Part shown: positions 10,828-26,961 of the stretch, in pieces | Layout of the letters: each line of letters opens with the position of its first letter | Position numbering within the stretch: the first letter of the stretch is position 1 | Origin: a virus | Virus record (IMG/VR): IMGVR_UViG_3300025418_001109 | Coordinates: 1 to 27,045 of that record | Reading direction: 5' to 3' (one strand) | Length of the DNA stretch: 27,045 nucleotides | Made by a program: the position numbers and the translations under genes | Notes under the pieces: model-generated | The model's database searches: none | What the model was told of the DNA's origin: nothing | The model's input: only the letters and a program-made list of their open reading frames with translations

Positions 10828-11006
10828 TTGAGGTCATCTTCATCTAAGTCATCATCCTCTATATATTCTTCGGATAATTCTTCGATGGGATCACCACAAA
10901 ATGGGCAAAACTCCGGCATTGGTTGTGAAACTAATTCTTGTGTATATTCGACTGTATAAGACGATTCACACTCTAAACATTCTCCAGAAATTACTTTGTT
11001 TGTCAT
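10818..11006 (-). CDS. Small zinc-ribbon protein with acidic tail (62 aa)
   Basis: Two CxxC pairs (C10-LE-C13 and C34-PF-C37) form a zinc ribbon, followed by an acidic tail (residues 41-62, EEYIEDDDLDEDD) that could mimic nucleic acid or bind basic partners. Weak AAGAAGA precedes the start. It sits directly downstream of nrdB. Function unknown; transcription or replication accessory roles are usual for such phage proteins. Confidence 0.75.
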   Translation of the reverse strand: MTNKVISGECLECESSYTVEYTQELVSQPMPEFCPFCGDPIEELSEEYIEDDDLDEDDLKWE

Positions 11007-11035
11007 TTTTATTCTTCTTATTATGGTTTAACAAT

Positions 11036-12022
11036 TTATTTGGCCCAAACATCGGACCAATCTCCAGTCAAAGCACCTTTAGCATAGTCTGTTGCACGAT
11101 TCTCAAAGAAATTTGTGTGCGTAGGTGCATTAATCATTTCTTCAACCCAAGGTAATGGATTTTTCTTCACTTTAAAGATACCTTTGAGTGATAGAGAAAT
11201 CAATCTACGGTCAGCAATGTAACGGATGTATTTCTTAACATCTTCAGCAGTTAGTCCTTCCATTTCACCCATTGCAAATGCTAGGTCGATGAACTTATCT
11301 TCTAGTTCAACCATCTTTTCAGCAATGGTGTAAATGCGTGACTTCAATTCATCATTCCAGATTTCTGGATTTTCTTGAATGTAAGTGCGGAACAACTTAA
11401 TCATGTTCTCAGCGTGTTGTGTCTCATCTACAATAGACCATGTAACAATTTGACCCATGCCTTTCATTTTACCATGACGAGGGAAGTTCAACAACATAAT
11501 AAATGAACTGAATAGTTGCATACCTTCAGTGAATGCAGAGAATACCGCAATGTGTGTTGCAGTATTTTCTTTTGTGGTATTCTGTGCAGAGATATCCATA
11601 ACATAGTCATGCTTCTCACGCATTTCAGCATACTCTAAGAATTCGTTGTATGTTGTTTCTGGCAAACCAAGAGTTTCAATCAAGTGTGAGTATGCGGCAA
11701 CATGTAATGCTTCACGAGCAGCAAAACCCAACAACATCATTCTCATTTCTGGTTGCGGAAAGTATGGTAAATAATTATTAACATAACCACCAGCAACGTC
11801 AATGTCACCTTGAGTGAAGAAACGGAAGATATGTGTCAGAAATTTCTTTTCTTCTGGTGTTAGTTTCTTCTTCCAATCTTTAACATCTTCCATCATTGGA
11901 ACTTCTGTATGAAGCCAATGTGATTGTTCATGTTTCAACCATGCATCGTAAGCCCAAGCATAATTGAATGGTTTGAAATAACTTCTCTCTGAAGTTACAT
12001 CTTGTTTTGTTTTTTTAATCAT
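11036..12022 (-). CDS. nrdB: Ribonucleotide reductase class I small (beta) subunit
   Basis: Holds the diiron/tyrosyl radical that powers NDP reduction by NrdA. From the ATG at 12022 (328 aa) the ligand set is present: acid at D73/D75, E104 and H107 (EALH), E166 (TEGMQ), E200 and H203 (DETQHAE), plus the radical Tyr at 111 (EALHVAAY, spacing as in E. coli E115-x-x-H118-x-x-x-Y122). That indicates a class Ia-type enzyme. The start at 12022 overlaps the thioredoxin stop (ATGA) with AAAGGAA upstream, so I prefer it to 12031. It is translated with the thioredoxin. Confidence 0.95.
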   Translation of the reverse strand: MIKKTKQDVTSERSYFKPFNYAWAYDAWLKHEQSHWLHTEVPMMEDVKDWKKKLTPEEKKFLTHIFRFFTQGDIDVAGGYVNNYLPYFPQPEMRMMLLGFAAREALHVAAYSHLIETLGLPETTYNEFLEYAEMREKHDYVMDISAQNTTKENTATHIAVFSAFTEGMQLFSSFIMLLNFPRHGKMKGMGQIVTWSIVDETQHAENMIKLFRTYIQENPEIWNDELKSRIYTIAEKMVELEDKFIDLAFAMGEMEGLTAEDVKKYIRYIADRRLISLSLKGIFKVKKNPLPWVEEMINAPTHTNFFENRATDYAKGALTGDWSDVWAK

Positions 12023-18157: not shown

Positions 18158-18781
18158 TTACGCTCCTAGAACGGCCATAACATGATTATAATGTTTAATA
18201 CGGTCATCAAGACCAATAGTGCCACCATTGATACGTTTAGTCAATGTAATCATATCATTCTTATCAGCCCATTGGTTTAGGTTATTAGTTTCCCAGAACC
18301 AACATGCTGATTGTGCAGCACCCTCAAATGTTTGCATATACTCAGCTGCTTCTTCTGGTGATATACCAATACTTGCAGCAAACCAGAAATAATTGTCTTT
18401 ACCTGTAGTCTGAATTAGACCACGACCACAGTAACGGTAACCATCACCAGACGCTTCATCGCCGTTACCCATACGGTTGGCGTAAACACGGTTGGCAATC
18501 GCTTCCTGTTTGTTAGGCATACTCGCATATTGATTTGCAAGTTCGTCTGTAGGAAAATACTTTGGAAAAATCTTACGTAGAGTTGCCGCTTTGTAATTTA
18601 GATTCTCTTTCAATGCGGTGAATTCAGCAGACTCATGGGCACACTGAGCCAAGAACGCAGCGATACGTTGTGGTGTATCGATCTGGTAATCTGGCAATAA
18701 TTGTTCTAACGCAGAATACCAATGGTCAATGTATTGATTCTTTGGTAGAATTTGTTTTAGTTGTGCTTTTGAAAGTTGCAT
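18158..18781 (-). CDS. GH19 endolysin (chitinase-like lysozyme, 207 aa)
   Basis: Degrades peptidoglycan at lysis. The GH19 catalytic region is visible: QCAHESAEFTALKENLNY with catalytic Glu at residues 50 and 59. Further on are YANRMGNGDEASGDGYRYCGRGLIQTTGKDNY (98-129) and WADKNDMITLTKRINGG, both typical of phage GH19 lysozymes. No signal peptide is seen, so release to the periplasm would need a holin. Its ATG overlaps the o-spanin stop (TAATG). Confidence 0.95.
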   Translation of the reverse strand: MQLSKAQLKQILPKNQYIDHWYSALEQLLPDYQIDTPQRIAAFLAQCAHESAEFTALKENLNYKAATLRKIFPKYFPTDELANQYASMPNKQEAIANRVYANRMGNGDEASGDGYRYCGRGLIQTTGKDNYFWFAASIGISPEEAAEYMQTFEGAAQSACWFWETNNLNQWADKNDMITLTKRINGGTIGLDDRIKHYNHVMAVLGA

Positions 18782-19041
18782 TACTTAACCTCATCAAAAA
18801 TCTTCTTTTGACTGTTGTACCAATCTATCCATGCATCAACTTTAGAAGAGCATTGGTGGTATAATGTATAATTATTTACAACTGTTTTTGCCACATCACT
18901 GAGTTTGGCCTCGTCAGATAACTTATTTAGTTCTTCACAATTTGTCTTTAATTCAACAGGTGCTTCTGGAAATTTTACGGTCACAGGAACAACAGTTGAA
19001 CAACCAGTGAGTAGAATTAGTGATAATAGTGTATATTTCAT
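18781..19041 (-). CDS. Outer-membrane spanin lipoprotein, o-spanin (86 aa)
   Basis: A clear lipobox, LLTGC (Cys at 14), after an 11-residue hydrophobic stretch. The mature part (73 residues) is helical with a few Cys and charged residues. It sits directly downstream of a two-TM/coiled-coil gene with an ATGA overlap, as expected for an i-spanin/o-spanin pair that fuses the inner and outer membranes in the last step of lysis. This implies a Gram-negative host. Confidence 0.8.
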   Translation of the reverse strand: MKYTLLSLILLTGCSTVVPVTVKFPEAPVELKTNCEELNKLSDEAKLSDVAKTVVNNYTLYHQCSSKVDAWIDWYNSQKKIFDEVK

Positions 19042-19460
19042 TTCTCAGCCGCCTTGTTCAACACTTCAATAAATTCTTTTGGTATTGTGCATTGATTGTC
19101 ATACTTGACTATTTCACGGTCAACAAATTTGACAATATCATCACCTTTTTCACGATAGTATTCTCTCTTGGTGACAAACTTGGTCACAACCGTCTGGTTT
19201 GCTTCTTTTGACTTTTCTTCTGCGACTGCAACCTTGGCTTCCATTTCTTTTACTCTTGCAATCCAAACACTCTCATTATAACTTGCACCAGACATAAAAG
19301 TTCCAATTACGACAAGTAATATGGAACCTATTTGTACTGGAGTTTTGTAAAGTGATAGACCAGGAAGAAATTTTATCAAATAGGATGCGGCATAACCAAT
19401 TACACCTATTAATAAAACTGCATAAAAAAACCAATCAGGAAGCCATTTTAATATCCACAT
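19038..19460 (-). CDS. Inner-membrane spanin-like protein, i-spanin (140 aa)
   Basis: Two hydrophobic segments (about residues 8-30 and 42-60) are followed by a helical coiled-coil segment (RVKEMEAKVAVAEEKSKEA) and a periplasmic basic end. This matches the i-spanin layout with a second TM segment more than the usual one. Its stop overlaps the o-spanin start (ATGA). With the o-spanin and GH19 endolysin it completes a Gram-negative lysis cassette. AAAGGTG precedes the start. Confidence 0.72.
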   Translation of the reverse strand: MWILKWLPDWFFYAVLLIGVIGYAASYLIKFLPGLSLYKTPVQIGSILLVVIGTFMSGASYNESVWIARVKEMEAKVAVAEEKSKEANQTVVTKFVTKREYYREKGDDIVKFVDREIVKYDNQCTIPKEFIEVLNKAAEK

Positions 19461-19462
19461 TT

Positions 19463-19675
19463 TTACACCTTTGGTGGTTTTCTAGAACCCATTCCCATCA
19501 TTATGGGGTTGTGTGCCTTCTTTTTCTTTAGATAAACACCAGGTTCACCAGACTTACTGCCTGGTGGTTGACCCATGCCTGCAACAGCACCACTACTTGT
19601 TACGTTTGTTGGACCTGCTGATACAGCTCCAGCACCCATACCGTCTTCTTTGACGAATTGTTTAAAACGTTTCAT
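19463..19675 (-). CDS. Small CTS-type head-region protein (70 aa)
   Basis: From ATG 19675 it begins MKRFKQFVKED, close to T4 capsid-targeting sequences (MKTYQEFIAE): basic residue, aromatic, then a hydrophobic-x-E site. The rest is Gly/Ser-rich (GAGAVSAGPTNVTSSGAVAG) and ends HNPIMMGMGSRKPPKV. Similar small proteins occur in T4-like head regions. Its ATG overlaps the stop of the 19675-20553 gene (TAATG). Possibly packaged in the head, by the N-terminal motif. Confidence 0.65.
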   Translation of the reverse strand: MKRFKQFVKEDGMGAGAVSAGPTNVTSSGAVAGMGQPPGSKSGEPGVYLKKKKAHNPIMMGMGSRKPPKV

Positions 19676-20553
19676 TAGCAGTTCCATTTTCTTAGTGCTA
19701 GCGCTTTGCGAGTTGGTTTACCGTCCTTCTTCATAGGACCTTTCATACCACCCATTCTAGCACAGAAAGATTTACGGCGATTAGCTGCCTTAGAACCTTT
19801 TTTAAGTTTTGATGGAGGTGTTGTAACCGCCATCTTTAGTTTTGAACCTGGATTCTCTCTACGATATGATGCAACACCTTTGCGATTCAAACCACCCTTA
19901 GGGTCTTTACCTTCTTTACGGCGCCATGCGGCAGACTCATAAAGTTCTTCATCCGAAACGTCTTCTAGGTCTTCCCAAATTTGTTCAGGATCGATGTTAT
20001 GTGTCTCTGCAATCTCCATGACCAGTTCTTCAACGATGTCAAACATTGCATCTGGATTGTGTTCTTCTTTAAGTTCACTACGCATGTAATTGGCAACAGT
20101 CATGATGTAGTCTTCTGCCAATGTAATTTTAGATTCAACCCATTCAGGTAAGTCCGTTTTGTCACCAATCAAGTCCATCATCTCTTGTGCATTGTGCATG
20201 ATGGTACGTAATTGATTGATGGCCATGTATGGATCAGAGTATTCTGGATCTTTTTCTTCCATTACACCTTTCTTCTTCAATGTGTTAGGATGTGCTAGAC
20301 CTTTTTTGACTTTTTCTGCCTGACTCATCTTATCAACTTGCTTGCCAAGTTTGGTATCAACATCATACCAAGTCTGTGGGTGTGGTTTTTTATTGCCTTC
20401 CGTCACATCTTCAACTTCTTCCGGTACACAATTTGGAACTGTACGTCCACCTTTTTGTTTTGTACCAACAGGATGGTATCCAGTCCAGCATGGATTACTG
20501 GTTCTCAAAGATTTCTTTTTTTCTTCTTCTCTGATTTGTTTGAAACTTTTCAT
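19675..20553 (-). CDS. Multi-module head-region protein with DUF6321-like C-terminus (292 aa)
   Basis: Three segments recognised from separate phage proteins are joined here. First, an N-terminal CTS-like MKSFKQIREEEKK and NPCWTGYHPVGTKQKGGRTVPNCVPEE (20-46), a Cys-pair motif frequent in phage head-region proteins. Second, a helical DPYMAINQLRTIMHNAQEMM ... WVESKITLAEDYIMTVANYM block (107-157). Third, a basic C-terminal block (about 208-292: AAWRRKEGKDPKGGLN ... SFCARMGGMKGPM ... RKALALRKWNC) that matches DUF6321. The C-terminal part is often a stand-alone protein, so this looks like a natural fusion. Role unknown; a DNA-binding, packaged protein is a reasonable guess from the basic content and CTS. 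Confidence 0.75.
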   Translation of the reverse strand: MKSFKQIREEEKKKSLRTSNPCWTGYHPVGTKQKGGRTVPNCVPEEVEDVTEGNKKPHPQTWYDVDTKLGKQVDKMSQAEKVKKGLAHPNTLKKKGVMEEKDPEYSDPYMAINQLRTIMHNAQEMMDLIGDKTDLPEWVESKITLAEDYIMTVANYMRSELKEEHNPDAMFDIVEELVMEIAETHNIDPEQIWEDLEDVSDEELYESAAWRRKEGKDPKGGLNRKGVASYRRENPGSKLKMAVTTPPSKLKKGSKAANRRKSFCARMGGMKGPMKKDGKPTRKALALRKWNC

Positions 20554-20936
20554 ATCTTCCTCAGTATATCTGCGACTTTCATGTCCACTGGAATTACGTC
20601 CGTTATTATATTCTTACCTTTAATACCTTTAACGACTTCAGGTAATATGTTTAGATACAATAAGAAAGTCTTGAGTACATCATAGTCTTTCTCATCTATT
20701 CTAAAAAACAATATTCTTGCCGTTGCTTCAACACCAAATACATTGTTCAATAATATAATGTGATTAAGTATCAACCTTTCTTTCAGGTTCTTAGTCACCT
20801 TATATCTGCGAAGGAGCCTTTTGAGATACTTAGTTCTTTTCAAGTCTCCTTCAAATTCCGACATAAGACAACTAGTGGATGTGTAACACTTAACCGCATA
20901 CATCACAAAATTGTCTTCATTCAAATCATCAAACAT
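20550..20936 (-). CDS. Conserved T4-type phage protein, DUF7207-like (128 aa)
   Basis: Begins MFDDLNEDNFVMYAVKCYTS and continues LKRTKYLKRLLRRYKVTKNLKERLILNHIILLNNVFGVEATARILFFR. This matches a small conserved family of T4-like phages (DUF7207 in my recollection); its function is unknown. No clear Shine-Dalgarno precedes the ATG; a hairpin (20942-20957) lies directly upstream. It overlaps the 19675 gene by four bases (ATGA). Confidence 0.7.
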   Translation of the reverse strand: MFDDLNEDNFVMYAVKCYTSTSCLMSEFEGDLKRTKYLKRLLRRYKVTKNLKERLILNHIILLNNVFGVEATARILFFRIDEKDYDVLKTFLLYLNILPEVVKGIKGKNIITDVIPVDMKVADILRKI

Positions 20937-20941
20937 AATGT

Positions 20942-20957
20942 TGGGGCAAAAGCCCCA
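20942..20957 (-). terminator. GC-rich hairpin between structural gene and 20550 gene
   Basis: TGGGGC (20942-20947) and GCCCCA (20952-20957) pair around a four-base loop, in the 27-base gap after the 20964-21581 stop. The minus strand lacks a U-run, so it may only attenuate or stabilise the transcript end. Confidence 0.5.
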
Positions 20958-20963
20958 TCCTTA

Positions 20964-21581
20964 TTATAGACCAGTGAATGCTTGTCCCCAGCTTGTATTG
21001 CCGGAGTTAGTATTGGAAGCAACTGGACTGGCCAAAGCAACCAATGTTTCATTGATGTAACGAACTGTTCCATCATTGTTGGTTTTCTTTTGGATGTGAA
21101 CCCAACCTGGATTAACACTACCGAAAGCAACAGTGCTGTTTGCTAGACGAGTTGGTGTTACCAAAATTGTGTCTGCACCATATGTTTTAGTCATTGTTTT
21201 GTTTGTGTTATAAACAATAGCTTTGTCAAACTCAACGCCATAACCTGCACTTACAGTATTAAATAATGCTGTACCTAAAGTGATTGTATTACCACTTGTG
21301 GAAGCAACAGTTGTGTTAGAAGCAAAGAAACCTGGAACACCATTACCTGCTGTACCACCTGGAGTTCCAAATCCGTTTGCCCAGAAATAGACATATTGAC
21401 CGGCGGTTATACCAATATTGGCTACGTTATTTAATCCACCATCATTGTAAGAAACTTGGATGATTGTATTACCTGCGGTATTGCCGGTAAGAATGTAAAG
21501 CTGAACGTTTTCTCTTGTTTCACGTTCAACATCCATTTTTGGTTTGCTGATGTGTTTGTCGTTATTTGACCATGCTGACAT
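20964..21581 (-). CDS. Putative virion structural protein (205 aa)
   Basis: Begins MSAWSNNDKHISKPK and ends with GWVHIQKKTNNDGTVRYINETLVALASP, features of a T4-like phage protein annotated as structural. The middle is Gly/Thr/Asn-rich and probably beta-rich. AAGGAG gives a secure start and a late-promoter-like AATAAATA lies 30 bp upstream. It is probably a virion protein made late; its exact place in the particle is unknown. Confidence 0.75.
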   Translation of the reverse strand: MSAWSNNDKHISKPKMDVERETRENVQLYILTGNTAGNTIIQVSYNDGGLNNVANIGITAGQYVYFWANGFGTPGGTAGNGVPGFFASNTTVASTSGNTITLGTALFNTVSAGYGVEFDKAIVYNTNKTMTKTYGADTILVTPTRLANSTVAFGSVNPGWVHIQKKTNNDGTVRYINETLVALASPVASNTNSGNTSWGQAFTGL

Positions 21582-21610
21582 TTTTATATCTCCTTGAAGG
21601 GTAATCTACC

Positions 21611-21618
21611 TATTTATT
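21611..21618 (-). promoter_or_regulatory. T4-like late promoter motif
   Basis: The minus strand reads AATAAATA, matching the NATAAATA late motif of T4-like cyanophages and close to T4 TATAAATA. It lies 30 bp upstream of the structural gene and overlaps the end of the preceding gene. Confidence 0.55.
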
Positions 21619-22663
21619 GAATTGATTTTTTGCCTGTGTTTGTGGCAATATAGTCTGGTTGTTTGCCACGATTTTTCATCATTGGATCAATTTCAATCGT
21701 GTCTCGTTTCTCACCAGTGAGAGTAGTTCCACCTTTTAGAACCATTCGAGCATTGGTTCCTTTTTCATCATCATCGTTAACCTCTTGTTTTTTAACCACT
21801 TTTGGTGGTTTAACATTAGTACCTGGACCCTTATCGTCTTTTTCATGGTCATACATGTCTTCTTTTAATCTATGTTTTGCATAGATTTCTTTGACCATTT
21901 TGGCAGCCTTAGATTTCTTAGGTGCAACATCGTTGGTTGTATTTGCACCATCAAATGGAGATTGAGTGGCGCATTGTGGATCATTGATGTTATCTTCTTG
22001 TCTTAACCCAGTTTTTGCTGGACTATGCACAGTTTTGATTATACCATCTTGTGCAGCCTTATTCAATTGGTGTGCTCTTTTACGGGTTGGTGAATCTGAA
22101 ACGTGTGAACGAATTTTTTTAACTGAAATTGGATCAGTTTCTTCTTTCACGGATGACTTTTTACCTTTTGCGGCTTCTTCTGGAGAATCATGGAATGTGG
22201 TAGTCTTGGTTGGATGTGAAGAACTGCCACCGGCAGCAAAATACTTACCAGTTTCACCATGCTTCATAATGTTGGCATGTTTGGTGCCATTTGAATGCCA
22301 TGAGTGACCAACAAGTGTATGTCCTGCGCTTGTTTTAGAAGGTTTACCATGAGCCGGCTCGTAAGTTACGCCTTCATCGATAGTATCCTCTTCATAAATG
22401 CCGTGGTCACGTTTCCACTTATCAAACTCACCAGTCTTTGCTTGACCAACTCTTTGGTTTTTGCTTACATAATTGATATTGTAACCTTTAGCTTTGTAAA
22501 ACTTGGATAATAAGTCTGCTCGGCGTGAGGTCACATTTTCTGGAATTTGAAGGCCGCCACCTGCACCGGTGGCAGACCATGGATCACTTGGGTCCACATT
22601 TCCTTTGGAAGGTGGTGCAGATTGTTTTGCAACACCTTTCACCACATCCTTCATTTTAGTCAT
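21614..22663 (-). CDS. Charged virion-region protein (349 aa)
   Basis: Rich in Lys, Gly, Ser, Thr and His. Notable segments are TSRRADLLSKFYKAKGYNINYVS (45-67), a His-containing core (HTLVGHSWHSNGTKHANIMKHGETGKYF) and PMMKNRGKQPDYIATNTGKKS at the end. GFDxWKRDHGIYEEDTI-type segments recur in T4-like head-region genes, but I cannot name a family. AGAGGAA precedes the ATG at 22663, which overlaps the stop of the preceding gene. A packaged or core protein is plausible. Confidence 0.6.
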   Translation of the reverse strand: MTKMKDVVKGVAKQSAPPSKGNVDPSDPWSATGAGGGLQIPENVTSRRADLLSKFYKAKGYNINYVSKNQRVGQAKTGEFDKWKRDHGIYEEDTIDEGVTYEPAHGKPSKTSAGHTLVGHSWHSNGTKHANIMKHGETGKYFAAGGSSSHPTKTTTFHDSPEEAAKGKKSSVKEETDPISVKKIRSHVSDSPTRKRAHQLNKAAQDGIIKTVHSPAKTGLRQEDNINDPQCATQSPFDGANTTNDVAPKKSKAAKMVKEIYAKHRLKEDMYDHEKDDKGPGTNVKPPKVVKKQEVNDDDEKGTNARMVLKGGTTLTGEKRDTIEIDPMMKNRGKQPDYIATNTGKKSIQ

Positions 22664-23738
22664 GTTTCTTTTCCTCTGAAGTTCCTAGTTTGCCCATAAC
22701 TTCGGTTCTAATTTTTTTAAAAGATTTGTGTGCCAATTCTTTTGCAAGTTTCATTGGTGTTCTTTCTTCTTCCTCAACATTCAACTTAACTTTGTAAGAA
22801 AGTGGTTTGTTGTGATAATCAGCAGGAACTTTTACACGACCTTTTAACGTATCAACAGTTTTGGTTTTCATGTTTTCGGTTGGATCGATATGCACATCCT
22901 CTTCTTCGCTCATTGTGCTGATACCACCAAGGTTTTCATGTTTCATTGCTTGTTTTGTAGCAGTTGCGTACATCACATTCTTAGCACGATCACCATAACG
23001 TGATTTGAATCCTGCCAAACCTTTTTTCATAGATTTGACAATCTTTTCACGCTTTTCTTTTTCACCACTAGTCATGTGGCGTTCTTCTTCCTCTTTGTGC
23101 ATCTTGTCAACGTGTTTACCGACTTCTTTGTCAGCAATTTTCTTTGCTTGTGGTGGTGTTACACAATCACCTTCTTCTGTCATCTTGTGAGCAGACAAAT
23201 GAGTTTCTTTTTCTTCTTCTTTCTTCAAGGCAGAAGGTTTAACCATTTTTTTAACAAGTGCTTTGTCTTCTTTCTCATCCGGATGAGATTCTTCCTTAAC
23301 TGCTTTTTTGGTGTATACATCACCAGTAGAAGTTTTCTTGTGCTCATGTCCAGTCAACTCACCTTTTTTCTTAGGCAATTGGCTCATGTATTTACCTTTT
23401 AGAACGTCAAAAGGATTAGAAGATTTCTTCTCATCTTCTTCTCTAACATCAGCAGAATGACCTTTTGCAGCAGCTTTATCATCTTTTTTCTTTGCAATTT
23501 CTCCACCAATTTTTTCTGGAGGAACCATACCTTCAGAGTGGTGTTTTGCGGTCACTGGATATCTTTTACCTTGAAATTCAAAGTGGGATTGATTTGCTCT
23601 TTTAGCAGCATGTGCAGCCTTATGAAAACCAGTTTCGTCTAATTCTGGTTCTAAAAGCATCTTTTTCTTTTCATCAGCTTCCATGATTGCTCTGGTTGCA
23701 TCAACCAATGATTGTGGTACTAGAGATTTAGTAAACAT
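22656..23738 (-). CDS. Highly charged head-region protein with RYGDRAKNVMYATATKQAM motif (360 aa)
   Basis: A Lys/Glu/His-rich, probably largely helical and disordered protein. The N-terminal MFTKSLVPQSLVDATRAIMEADEKKK is a phage-type leader with an IxE site after residue 18. Residues 244-270 read KSRYGDRAKNVMYATATKQAM, a motif I recognise as recurring in T4-like phage proteins. AGGAG precedes the ATG, and its start overlaps the stop of the 23738-25735 gene (TAATG). It could be a prohead core or packaged protein; no enzyme motif is visible. Confidence 0.6.
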   Translation of the reverse strand: MFTKSLVPQSLVDATRAIMEADEKKKMLLEPELDETGFHKAAHAAKRANQSHFEFQGKRYPVTAKHHSEGMVPPEKIGGEIAKKKDDKAAAKGHSADVREEDEKKSSNPFDVLKGKYMSQLPKKKGELTGHEHKKTSTGDVYTKKAVKEESHPDEKEDKALVKKMVKPSALKKEEEKETHLSAHKMTEEGDCVTPPQAKKIADKEVGKHVDKMHKEEEERHMTSGEKEKREKIVKSMKKGLAGFKSRYGDRAKNVMYATATKQAMKHENLGGISTMSEEEDVHIDPTENMKTKTVDTLKGRVKVPADYHNKPLSYKVKLNVEEEERTPMKLAKELAHKSFKKIRTEVMGKLGTSEEKKHD

Positions 23739-25735
23739 TATTTTGCTCCTGTTTTATTTTTGATCCAGTTGTCTGGTGTTTTTCCGTGTTTATCTTTAAA
23801 GTGATTATGTAACTCTTTACCTGTAACCTTGTGTTTCTTAGAAATAGTCAACATTAATTGATTAATTGTATCATAATCGTGGTCTTTCAATTCATTCAAT
23901 CCTTTTTCCAGTTCTGCAACATGGTCTTCTTTAATCTTTTTCTTTTTAATTGTTATACCTGATTGGCCAAACTTTTCTGATGGCTTAACAAAGTCTTCCT
24001 TATTACCAGCACCACCAAGAGTGCCACCTACACCAGAATCTCCTTGACCAAAATCAAAGATTGATTCCTTAAACTTTTTCAACTTTTTATTCTTTTCTGC
24101 TAGTGGATTTGGGTTTACGTTTCTTGGTTGACCAGCAAAATTTGCAACATCATCGTTGCTAAATTCTCTTTCCTCACGGTATGTAGAATCTCCTAAACCT
24201 GAACTAGCAGCAGCACTTTGTCCTGCTGCTCTTGAGTTTGTTGTTGGTCCGATTCCACCAACGTCAGCAATCTTTGCGGAACTTAAAGACTTGTCACCAA
24301 ATTTCTTTCTTTTGATTGTGTCTGCGTCTTTATTGAAGTTGTCTACTTTTGGTTCTGGTTGTTTAACTAATACAGGACCTTTATCTTCAGTATATGTGCT
24401 ACCGCCACCAATTTTAGGTGTATAACCTCCATTAGGTTTGATATCACCATCTCTCACATCATCTCTACGACCTAGTTTTGCTGCAAATTGCATAACTGGA
24501 CTATTGTTATCTTTCAATACATTTAAACCTTTAGATGTAAGGTTTGACTTTTGAATAGACTTTGCACCAACTTTAGATTCATAGATTTGCAAGAATTTAT
24601 TTGCACTTGTGTAGTGTATTGAACCGTTGTCCAAGAATTTTGTTGTTTCTGTAAACAAGTCAGCAATATCACTAACTTTTTCTTCTAGGTCTCCAGTGTT
24701 GTCGAAGCGAGAGAAACTTTCAAACAATTCGGAAAAATGTGTAATATTCTTTTGTGCTTCTGTCCAACGGGTATGACGAATGGATTCTACCATCATTCTA
24801 GACAATAAGGTGTTTCTTTCTTGGCTCACTTGGTCTGTTGTGTCAACAAATACCATCATGGTTTTGTAACCCAATTCTTCCAATTCTTCTTTGATTTGAG
24901 AAATCTTTTCATAATCATCAGCAGGACCATTAATGATAAGTGGACCACGTTGACGAATTGCTTCCATCTTAGGATTCATAGAACGCATGGCCAATTTGTG
25001 CTTGTCGTTCATAATGTCCATAACTTGTTGGAAGTTTAATTCTACAATGTTTTGTTCTGCAATACACTCACGGATAACAACATCTTTACCAGAACCAGGA
25101 CCACCAGTAACAAAGATTGCTTTACCTTGTCCACGATTGGTAGATTCATGCAATCCCATGCCTTTAGTTACATCATGAAACAATTCTGTTGCATGTTCTG
25201 GATGTTTCTGAATGTTTGTTGGTAGATTCTTTTTGAATTCTTTGAAGTTACCAGTTTTGACATGGTTACGCATGTCAGTACCTGATATACCAGGTTTACG
25301 TTCACCAGTTGATTGTTGTTCGATATGGTCAAACTTAAAGTATCCGTGACGACCTTCTACACCATTATACTTTTTCAAGAGGTGATAATTTGCTGATGCA
25401 TCTTCACCGGATGCAACGATGGCGTGGGTGTAACCTTTTTTATGCATCAATGCAGCATGGTGCAATAGTCCTGGTGCTTCTTTTGTAGCAGGAACAATGT
25501 TTGCATCTGGAAAAGCACGCTTGATGTGCTTCATTTTCGTCTTAATGTCAAGTGGGTTTTTCTTGGCATCATGAGCATGTGAAGCCACAATAATGTGGTC
25601 TGCGTGGTTCTTTTTAGCCAAATCTTGAATACCTTTGACATTTTCCTCATGACCCTTAGTTGGTGGATTCATGCGGCCAATTGCCAGGACAATCGACTTG
25701 GTCTTTTCTTCTACTAATTGTCTAAAGGATTTCAT
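23738..25735 (-). CDS. CTS-tagged nucleotidyltransferase/P-loop kinase fusion (665 aa)
   Basis: N-terminal residues 1-10, MKSFRQLVEE, look like a capsid-targeting sequence with an LxE site. Then follow a HxGH-type nucleotidyltransferase (GRMNPPTKGH at 20-29; ISGTDMR at 150-156), a P-loop kinase (Walker A GGPGSGKD at 211-218; VFVDTT later), a long Gly/Ser-rich linker, and a C-terminal domain (VTGKELHNHFKDKHGKTPDNW). The transferase-plus-kinase order resembles NadR (NMN adenylyltransferase/ribosylnicotinamide kinase), and similar phage proteins are annotated as cytidylyltransferases. Substrate unknown. It overlaps the preceding gene by ATGA. Confidence 0.8.
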   Translation of the reverse strand: MKSFRQLVEEKTKSIVLAIGRMNPPTKGHEENVKGIQDLAKKNHADHIIVASHAHDAKKNPLDIKTKMKHIKRAFPDANIVPATKEAPGLLHHAALMHKKGYTHAIVASGEDASANYHLLKKYNGVEGRHGYFKFDHIEQQSTGERKPGISGTDMRNHVKTGNFKEFKKNLPTNIQKHPEHATELFHDVTKGMGLHESTNRGQGKAIFVTGGPGSGKDVVIRECIAEQNIVELNFQQVMDIMNDKHKLAMRSMNPKMEAIRQRGPLIINGPADDYEKISQIKEELEELGYKTMMVFVDTTDQVSQERNTLLSRMMVESIRHTRWTEAQKNITHFSELFESFSRFDNTGDLEEKVSDIADLFTETTKFLDNGSIHYTSANKFLQIYESKVGAKSIQKSNLTSKGLNVLKDNNSPVMQFAAKLGRRDDVRDGDIKPNGGYTPKIGGGSTYTEDKGPVLVKQPEPKVDNFNKDADTIKRKKFGDKSLSSAKIADVGGIGPTTNSRAAGQSAAASSGLGDSTYREEREFSNDDVANFAGQPRNVNPNPLAEKNKKLKKFKESIFDFGQGDSGVGGTLGGAGNKEDFVKPSEKFGQSGITIKKKKIKEDHVAELEKGLNELKDHDYDTINQLMLTISKKHKVTGKELHNHFKDKHGKTPDNWIKNKTGAK

Positions 25736-26910
25736 CGTGGTCTTGCCAAAAAGTTAAGTCTGTTGAATTCTTGTCTATCATTTAGTTTAGAAACTTTACC
25801 TTTGTGTGTTGCAACGAAACCTTCTGGTTTAACTGATGCATCACCAACTGTATGTTCTAAGCCACCTGTATGTCTTGCTAAAACGTGAACCAAAGAATTT
25901 TTTGCTTGTTGCAAGTGATGATGCATTTTAAAGAAGTTCTCATAGTGTTGTGTATTGTTATCAATATGTTCAACGTGAGCTTTCTTTTCTGCTTCTTTTC
26001 TAGCAATCGCAGCAGGAGTTTTTACTTTAGCAATATCTTTGTCATATTTAGCTTCGATAGATTTCTTTAGTCCACCAACACTTGGTTTTTCACCAGTTCT
26101 AATAGTTTGGTTAATATGTGTCTCAATAGGACCACCAGCATTTCGGTGTGGCTCTGTGGCTGCATACATTTGTTTACCATGCAGATCATGTAGAGCTTGT
26201 GCTGATGCCAAATGGTGATGGTATTGCTCATCATCATGTTTGGACATCATAACTTTAGATGTGTCATGACCGGGTTCTCTATGATAGACATCCGGATGGT
26301 TTTTAAAACCAGACAAATCTGGATGAAAATCTGCTTTCATGTCCGCTAAGGTTTTACCATGATATTGTGTGTGCGTATAAACACCAATCTTGGCTTTACG
26401 AATCTTTTTACCTTCTTCAGACTCTTTAGGTGCAGAATAATTGATTGTGTTTGGTTTGAAGTGAACTCTACCGTCATGTTCAGTCTTATCACCATGGCCA
26501 AACATCATATCACCTTGATAAACACCAGTTTTAGGTGTAACTTTAGGTAGATGATGTAATGCGTCTTTTAGTTTAGCGACCAGACCTGGAGCATGTCCAT
26601 GGTTTAATTCGATGTCTTTTTCTGAGTAATTAACTTTTGGGTTTACATTAAAAGCAGATTTGGAAGCAACAAAAAACTTACCGGTTTCTGGATGGTGACC
26701 GTATACGATACTTGGTGAACCATCGTGTTTCATAGTCAAAGTAGGATCATTTTTGCCTGCTTTGATGTGTTTCCTAACTTGATTCAATACTCCAACCGCA
26801 TGGTCAAATCCTTCTGAACCACCATGGATAGCATGATCTTCCACATGCGTAATGTGTTTCAGCTTGGACTCGTCAGCTTCCTCTTTAAGTAGAGATTTAA
26901 AAGTTCTCAT
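25732..26910 (-). CDS. DUF6267-like protein with polynucleotide-ligase-like motifs (392 aa)
   Basis: From ATG 26910 it begins MRTFKSLLKE, a CTS-like leader with an LKE site. Residues 61-64 read KHDG, the KxDG motif I of covalent nucleotidyltransferases (DNA/RNA ligases), then SPSIVYGHHPETGKFFVASK. YQGDMM (131-136) could be motif III-like, EGFV (363-366) motif IV-like and KLNDRQEF (375-382) motif V-like. I recall phage proteins with this core as DUF6267. Rich in His (HHLQQ, DEQYHHH). Activity untested: it may ligate, nucleotidylate, or be a degenerate relative. A late promoter lies upstream and its 3' end overlaps the transferase-kinase gene. Confidence 0.75.
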   Translation of the reverse strand: MRTFKSLLKEEADESKLKHITHVEDHAIHGGSEGFDHAVGVLNQVRKHIKAGKNDPTLTMKHDGSPSIVYGHHPETGKFFVASKSAFNVNPKVNYSEKDIELNHGHAPGLVAKLKDALHHLPKVTPKTGVYQGDMMFGHGDKTEHDGRVHFKPNTINYSAPKESEEGKKIRKAKIGVYTHTQYHGKTLADMKADFHPDLSGFKNHPDVYHREPGHDTSKVMMSKHDDEQYHHHLASAQALHDLHGKQMYAATEPHRNAGGPIETHINQTIRTGEKPSVGGLKKSIEAKYDKDIAKVKTPAAIARKEAEKKAHVEHIDNNTQHYENFFKMHHHLQQAKNSLVHVLARHTGGLEHTVGDASVKPEGFVATHKGKVSKLNDRQEFNRLNFLARPR

Positions 26911-26953: not shown

Positions 26954-26961
26954 TATTTATA
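26954..26961 (-). promoter_or_regulatory. T4-type late promoter for the 26910 gene
   Basis: The minus strand reads TATAAATA, an exact T4 late -10, 44 bp upstream of the ATG at 26910. No -35-like hexamer is required in T4 late promoters. It partly follows the end of the gene at the right edge. Confidence 0.65.

Follow-up and report, generated by a model that had tools for sequence, protein, structure and literature searches.

Leaders resembling T4 capsid-targeting sequences on putative enzyme cargo of an aquatic T4-like phage

Four minus-strand genes of one cluster in a T4-like phage open with nearly the same peptide, which raises the question of whether the encoded proteins, two of them with enzyme motifs, are addressed to the phage head by a signal of the kind carried by the internal proteins of T4. 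The DNA analysed, here called the window, comprises 27,045 bases (IMG/VR record IMGVR_UViG_3300025418_001109). Its nearest relatives are IMG/VR contigs, the named-phage relatives, including HTVC008M and Melnitz, are mostly Kyanoviridae, and the company of these relatives points to a lake habitat of the virus. Mutants of T4 have assigned leader residues 4 and 7 to targeting and residues 8 and 10 to processing, with the prohead protease cleaving after L/I-x-E, and the leader of T4 IPIII alone suffices to package a foreign protein (PMC9026906). The four genes and their N-termini were found as the first-pass annotation had listed them (Table 1). The same annotation had placed them in a head region, a misleading label, as the cluster lies between the replicative helicase side and primase/nrdA, outside the capsid gene block; the window itself stops short of the capsid genes. 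In S-SCSM1, S-SZBM1 and S-SM1 the cluster is likewise located 5' of primase and nrdA, and in HTVC008M and Melnitz the corresponding cluster comes after the replicative helicase.

Table 1. Leaders, genes and motifs of the cluster, in window coordinates.
Feature	Position	Strand	Support or remark
DUF6267 protein, 392 aa, ligase-type nucleotidyltransferase motifs	25732..26910	-	PF19782 E 2e-92
Leader 1, MRTFKSLLKE	26881..26910	-	strict T4-type motif; kept in 164/168 relatives
DUF6267 KHDG motif, putative nucleotidyl-accepting lysine K61	26719..26730	-	
DUF6267 EGFV motif, ligase motif IV-like	25813..25824	-	
NadR-like nucleotidyltransferase + P-loop kinase-like protein, 665 aa	23738..25735	-	phrog_3041 cytidyltransferase E 2e-42
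Leader 2, MKSFRQLVEE	25706..25735	-	strict T4-type motif; MKxFxxF[LI]xEA form in 79/79 marine homologues
GRMNPPTKGH, nucleotidyltransferase HxGH-type signature (TKGH)	25649..25678	-	sequence and alignments
ISGTDMR, second nucleotidyltransferase signature	25268..25288	-	
GGPGSGKD, P-loop of kinase-like domain	25082..25105	-	
DUF6321-ending protein, 292 aa	19675..20553	-	PF19846 E 4e-22
Leader 3, MKSFKQIREE	20524..20553	-	weakest of the four; IRE at residues 7-9
70-aa gp61.1-like peptide, gp23 N-arm-like body	19463..19675	-	aligned with T4 gp61.1
Leader 4, MKRFKQFVKE	19646..19675	-	strict T4-type motif; top matrix score in window

A pattern derived from T4 (M[KR].[FY]..[FILVM][ILVM].E) was scanned over the 47 non-overlapping ORFs of the window and matched exactly three of them; a form one residue shorter matched the fourth, in which R occupies position 8 and I-x-E comes one residue early. 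The shared element is a leader of about ten N-terminal residues with an aromatic residue at position 4, hydrophobic residues at 7 and 8 and E at 10, strict in three genes and shifted by one residue in one. Patterns with permuted residue classes gave a mean of 0.005 matches per window and none of 200 permutations reached three, which rules out a chance likeness of the N-termini and bears out the motif as a real feature. Applied to the whole T4 genome, the pattern matches only gp61.1 and two proteins which we take, from the T4 map, to be IPII and IPIII, and with a matrix trained on leaders from other viruses the four highest scores in the window fall to these four genes. Two further candidates were rejected. 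Recent copying of a single leader from gene to gene is at odds with the many sites at which the four leader DNAs differ, and a signal at the level of DNA or translation with the several synonymous codons that encode the conserved residues.

Comparison of the N-termini across homologues, which the first-pass annotation had proposed as a check, showed that the leader is kept in all 79 nucleotidyltransferase loci from IMG/VR (consensus MKxFxxF[LI]xEA), in 164 of the 168 DUF6267 loci and, by a wider pattern, in 38 of 40 DUF6321-bearing ORFs. The least variable leader positions in relatives are 4, 7, 8 and 10, those which control targeting and cutting in the T4 mutants. For DUF6267 the entropies at these positions are 0.47, 1.10, 0.47 and 0 bits, with all other positions after M1 above 2 bits, values which derive from the canonical-register subset (69 of 88 unique leaders) and are somewhat favoured by a selecting pattern that itself requires residue classes there; nearly all loci satisfy the wider pattern too. 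The spacer between leader and nucleotidyltransferase core is highly variable in length and the leader is constant, so that, by both entropies and spacer lengths, the key positions are kept independently of the cargo body. In some of the nucleotidyltransferases from lakes, position 10 is occupied by D. In S-TIM5 and S-CBWM1 no homologue of the window nucleotidyltransferase was found, and each yielded a single odd match to the motif; these two phages were therefore left out of the supporting evidence.

With regard to cleavage, the major capsid proteins of nine relatives carry an LxE-type site, of the form [FILQ]LxE, at or near the position of the T4 cut FLTE/A (the slash marks the cut), and a gp21-family protease was found in both lake-type relatives whose contigs extend to that region. 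The relatives have both a cognate protease of L/I-x-E specificity and the corresponding gp23 cut-site motif, and the matching sites in leader and capsid protein suggest that the leaders may be cleaved by the prohead protease. Of the earlier proposal that these proteins are loaded into the head and cleaved, loading is well supported through homologues (conserved positions, virion mass spectrometry elsewhere, and the leader profile), and cleavage through motif and cut site.

Homologues of the window nucleotidyltransferase have been detected in the virions of S-SM1 (leader MKKFSAFLNEA; PMC3037559), S-SCSM1 (MKSFLQFLKEA; PMC9602691), S-SZBM1 (MRFRQFIIEA; PMC9146016) and S-CREM2 (MKNFSSFLTEA; PMC10665884), and the window DUF6321 protein is homologous to S-SCSM1_29, a protein with a virion annotation. 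In the S-PM2 virion proteome (PMC3037559) the nucleotidyltransferase went undetected, and it is seemingly absent from the 14 reported virion proteins of S-CREM1; likewise, detection in virions is neither marked nor listed for the leader-bearing S-SCSM1_30 and S-SZBM1_191. The kinase gene of S-CRM01 also opens with a leader, MISFDQFLSE. Its product is reportedly present in S-CRM01 virions, according to a paper citing the original 2011 study by Dreher. The cytidylyltransferase/NMNAT, kinases and SAM hydrolase found in virions of these cyanophages (S-SM1, S-SCSM1, S-SZBM1, S-CREM2 and S-CRM01) bear leaders of the same kind. The cyanophage nucleotidyltransferases share family and gene neighbourhood with the window protein, whereas in the latter a P-loop domain is added and the spacer is much reduced in length. 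The cyanophage papers, in the texts consulted, report presence in virions and mention no targeting leader, and no paper linking cyanophage virion enzymes to such leaders was found in a literature search that covered a minority of the subscription journals. We infer that the leader-bearing proteins are present in this virus's own particle as well.

The leader also served as a predictor of virion content. A matrix trained solely on 55 nucleotidyltransferase leaders from IMG/VR was run on all ORFs of S-CREM2, where five scored above zero (26.1, 20.6, 11.5, 10.1 and 10.0) and the sixth scored -1.4, the zero cut-off having been picked after this gap was seen. These five, ORF154 (nucleotidyltransferase), ORF14 (kinase), ORF13, ORF6 (SAM hydrolase) and ORF136, are all in the published virion table (5/5; PMC10665884). 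Such an outcome has a chance probability of 6e-4 when all coding genes are the background and of 5e-5 when the background is the genes not predicted to be structural; without ORF154, which belongs to the training family, the same counts give about 3e-3 and 3e-4 for the other four. Applied to S-SCSM1, S-SZBM1 and T4, the matrix also returned some plainly unrelated low positives, the clean gap being specific to S-CREM2. The S-CREM1 record, which carries no marks for detected proteins, did not serve as a second test case. A sixth enzyme of the S-CREM2 virion, ORF12, has LRFASFMAE/A behind an N-terminal extension. This protein, annotated as Cas9-like, and S-CRM01_128 (LSLDSFIKE/A) both have an FxxF-type site ending a longer N-terminus.

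The DUF6267 protein and the NadR-like protein are the candidate enzymes of the cluster, and the motifs ascribed to them in the first pass were recovered in both. In DUF6267 the ligase-like KxDG motif is accompanied by EGxV and a downstream lysine, and K61xDG64, EGxV363-366 and K375 are invariant in 66 aligned sequences. This motif set characterises covalent nucleotidyltransferases, ligases among them, and it is shared with ATP-dependent DNA and RNA ligases and mRNA capping enzymes, from which DUF6267 differs by a large helical insertion; a nucleotidyltransferase activity is putative. A sequence search of the PDB with DUF6267 gave no significant or useful match. With its AF2 model, Foldseek placed DNA ligases on top (E 0.035, low TM-score) and RNA ligases and capping enzymes lower, and the leader (residues 1-12, disordered) is the sole segment of that model with confidence below 50. 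A search of a viral structure library with DUF6267 hit an S-PM2 protein of 591 residues that carries a cytidyltransferase-like annotation, a match suggesting a natural fusion of DUF6267 with a nucleotidyltransferase.

In the 665-aa protein, the nucleotidyltransferase signatures GRxNPPxxGH and ISGTxxR and a P-loop were all present. Its model matches ATP sulfurylase and NadR across both domains, the P-loop part being of low confidence, and apart from ATP sulfurylase, NadR (bifunctional NMN adenylyltransferase/ribosylnicotinamide kinase) is the best structural match to span the two (Foldseek E 3e-6), with the same order of nucleotidyltransferase and P-loop and with intact motifs. In sequence, NCBIfam matches to NMNAT/NadR are well below the cut-offs and the P-loop instead matches Zeta_toxin (1e-5), to which it is nearer than to that of NadR; a long disordered C-terminal part is a further difference. 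Since phages have NAD-restoring pathways directed against host defence (PMC12774641), NAD supply is one plausible role of the putative cargo, and nucleic-acid end repair is another.

Capsid targeting by the leaders is strongly supported, and the most likely reading is that new enzyme cargo here carries capsid-targeting sequences of the T4 type. T4 IPI, IPII and IPIII have the same ten-residue N-terminal leader with key positions 4, 7, 8 and 10, E before the cut and a protease of the gp21 type, and T4 Alt is an injected enzyme, so that enzyme cargo has a counterpart in T4. The cargo itself (DUF6267, the NadR-like nucleotidyltransferase and DUF6321) is, however, unrelated to the T4 internal proteins, its genes lie in a cluster on the replication side, and it is known here from sequence. 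By analogy with T4, the leader, with F4 and an aromatic or large hydrophobic residue at position 7, would bind the prohead core during assembly and draw the protein inside, after which a gp21-type prohead protease would cleave behind [LIV]-x-E near residue 10 and release the cargo. The latter would remain in the head and probably pass into the next cell with the DNA, where DUF6267 and the NadR-like/P-loop protein could plausibly act at once on NAD and nucleotide pools or on nucleic-acid ends. This sequence of events as a whole, from loading, cleavage and retention to probable entry with the DNA and enzyme action, is considered highly probable.

The fourth leader-bearing product, the 70-aa peptide, aligns with the gp23 N-arm of the lake relatives, none of 500 shuffles aligning as well. 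T4 gp61.1 likewise has a leader and a gp23 N-arm-like body, and its gene also lies on the 5' side of primase; the window peptide differs in that its likeness is to the gp23 of its own virus kind and not to that of T4. The T4 protein (T4 18966-19130) can be aligned without gaps to the part of T4 gp23 directly past the cut site, with about 50% of residues identical; for the window peptide, the counterpart is instead the gp23 N-arm found in its own relatives (AVSAGPTNVTSSG versus AVSAAPTNVTGSG). From their sequences, in both a leader seems to be joined to a segment mimicking the capsid arm of the same phage, and gp61.1 has already been named 'major capsid domain-containing' by some annotators.

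This resemblance to the capsid N-arm, together with the influence of T4 IPIII on head morphogenesis (PMC9026906), would also fit proteins that serve as parts of the prohead core or scaffold, tethered by the leader for head building, with no delivery of active enzymes. Intact and invariant catalytic motifs would be superfluous in a purely structural part, though, and the cargo differs between phages (kinase, SAM hydrolase, nucleotidyltransferase) with the leader staying in place, and this explanation is regarded as unlikely. Less probable still is a partial packaging, in which the nucleotidyltransferase is true cargo and the leaders of DUF6267 and DUF6321 are relics or have another role. Virion homologues are known for only two of the four families, the nucleotidyltransferase (four phages) and DUF6321 (one phage), and none of DUF6267 is among the virion proteins of the phages compared; DUF6267 is often leaderless among cyanophages (S-SZBM1, S-SM1 and S-CRM01), the leaderless S-SZBM1_141 is absent from the S-SZBM1 proteome list, and R stands at position 8 in the leader of DUF6321. 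Against this, the DUF6267 leaders of lake viruses retain positions 4, 7, 8 and 10, and DUF6321 has both the near-constant leader noted above and an annotated virion homologue. That the shared N-terminus is a DNA or translation signal or a part of the fold, with no relation to the capsid, and that the virion detections reflect contamination by abundant proteins, as the proteome authors allow for CsCl-purified bulk preparations (PMC9602691), is very improbable, as synonymous codons vary, disorder in the DUF6267 model is confined to the leader, spacer length is free and contaminants would not favour leader-bearing proteins.

If the leaders do address enzymes to the head, a broader reading may tentatively be advanced, namely that aquatic T4-like phages share a leader-addressed system in which an exchangeable kit (a nucleotidyltransferase with or without a kinase domain, ligase-type DUF6267, SAM hydrolase and protein kinase) is loaded into heads, injected with the DNA and active before phage gene expression. 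Should this hold, NAD and nucleotide supply, nucleic-acid repair and anti-defence activities would precede any phage expression, the injected-protein strategy of T4 would extend to abundant viruses of sea and lake, and candidate enzymes for the first minutes of host takeover would be named. Cyanophage proteomics left open whether cytidylyltransferases, kinases and SAM hydrolase belong in the particles, and the conserved leader offers a mechanism for their presence and, as in S-CREM2, a sequence rule by which virion cargo may be predicted from genomes alone.

Some further features of the locus may be mentioned. An endolysin (phrog_181) and a spanin-like protein (window 18158-19460) immediately adjoin the leader cluster. 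The gene at window 22656-23738 encodes a lysine-rich protein with the N-terminus MFTKSLVPQSLVDATRAIME followed by a cut-like /AD; its relatives retain [IL]xE in a stretch that is otherwise variable, and this N-terminus is possibly a second, longer type of leader. A box resembling a T4 late promoter, TATAAATA, lies at window 26954-26961 on the minus strand, 43 bases upstream of the DUF6267 start, and recurs at the equivalent place in the relative G006; it was dropped as supporting evidence, as its three copies in the window against 1.69 expected are within chance. The gene directly upstream of DUF6267 is itself leader-initiated in G006 (20578-21618, MLTFLSFLGED) and in Melnitz (10872-11957, MQGFKTFLSEA).
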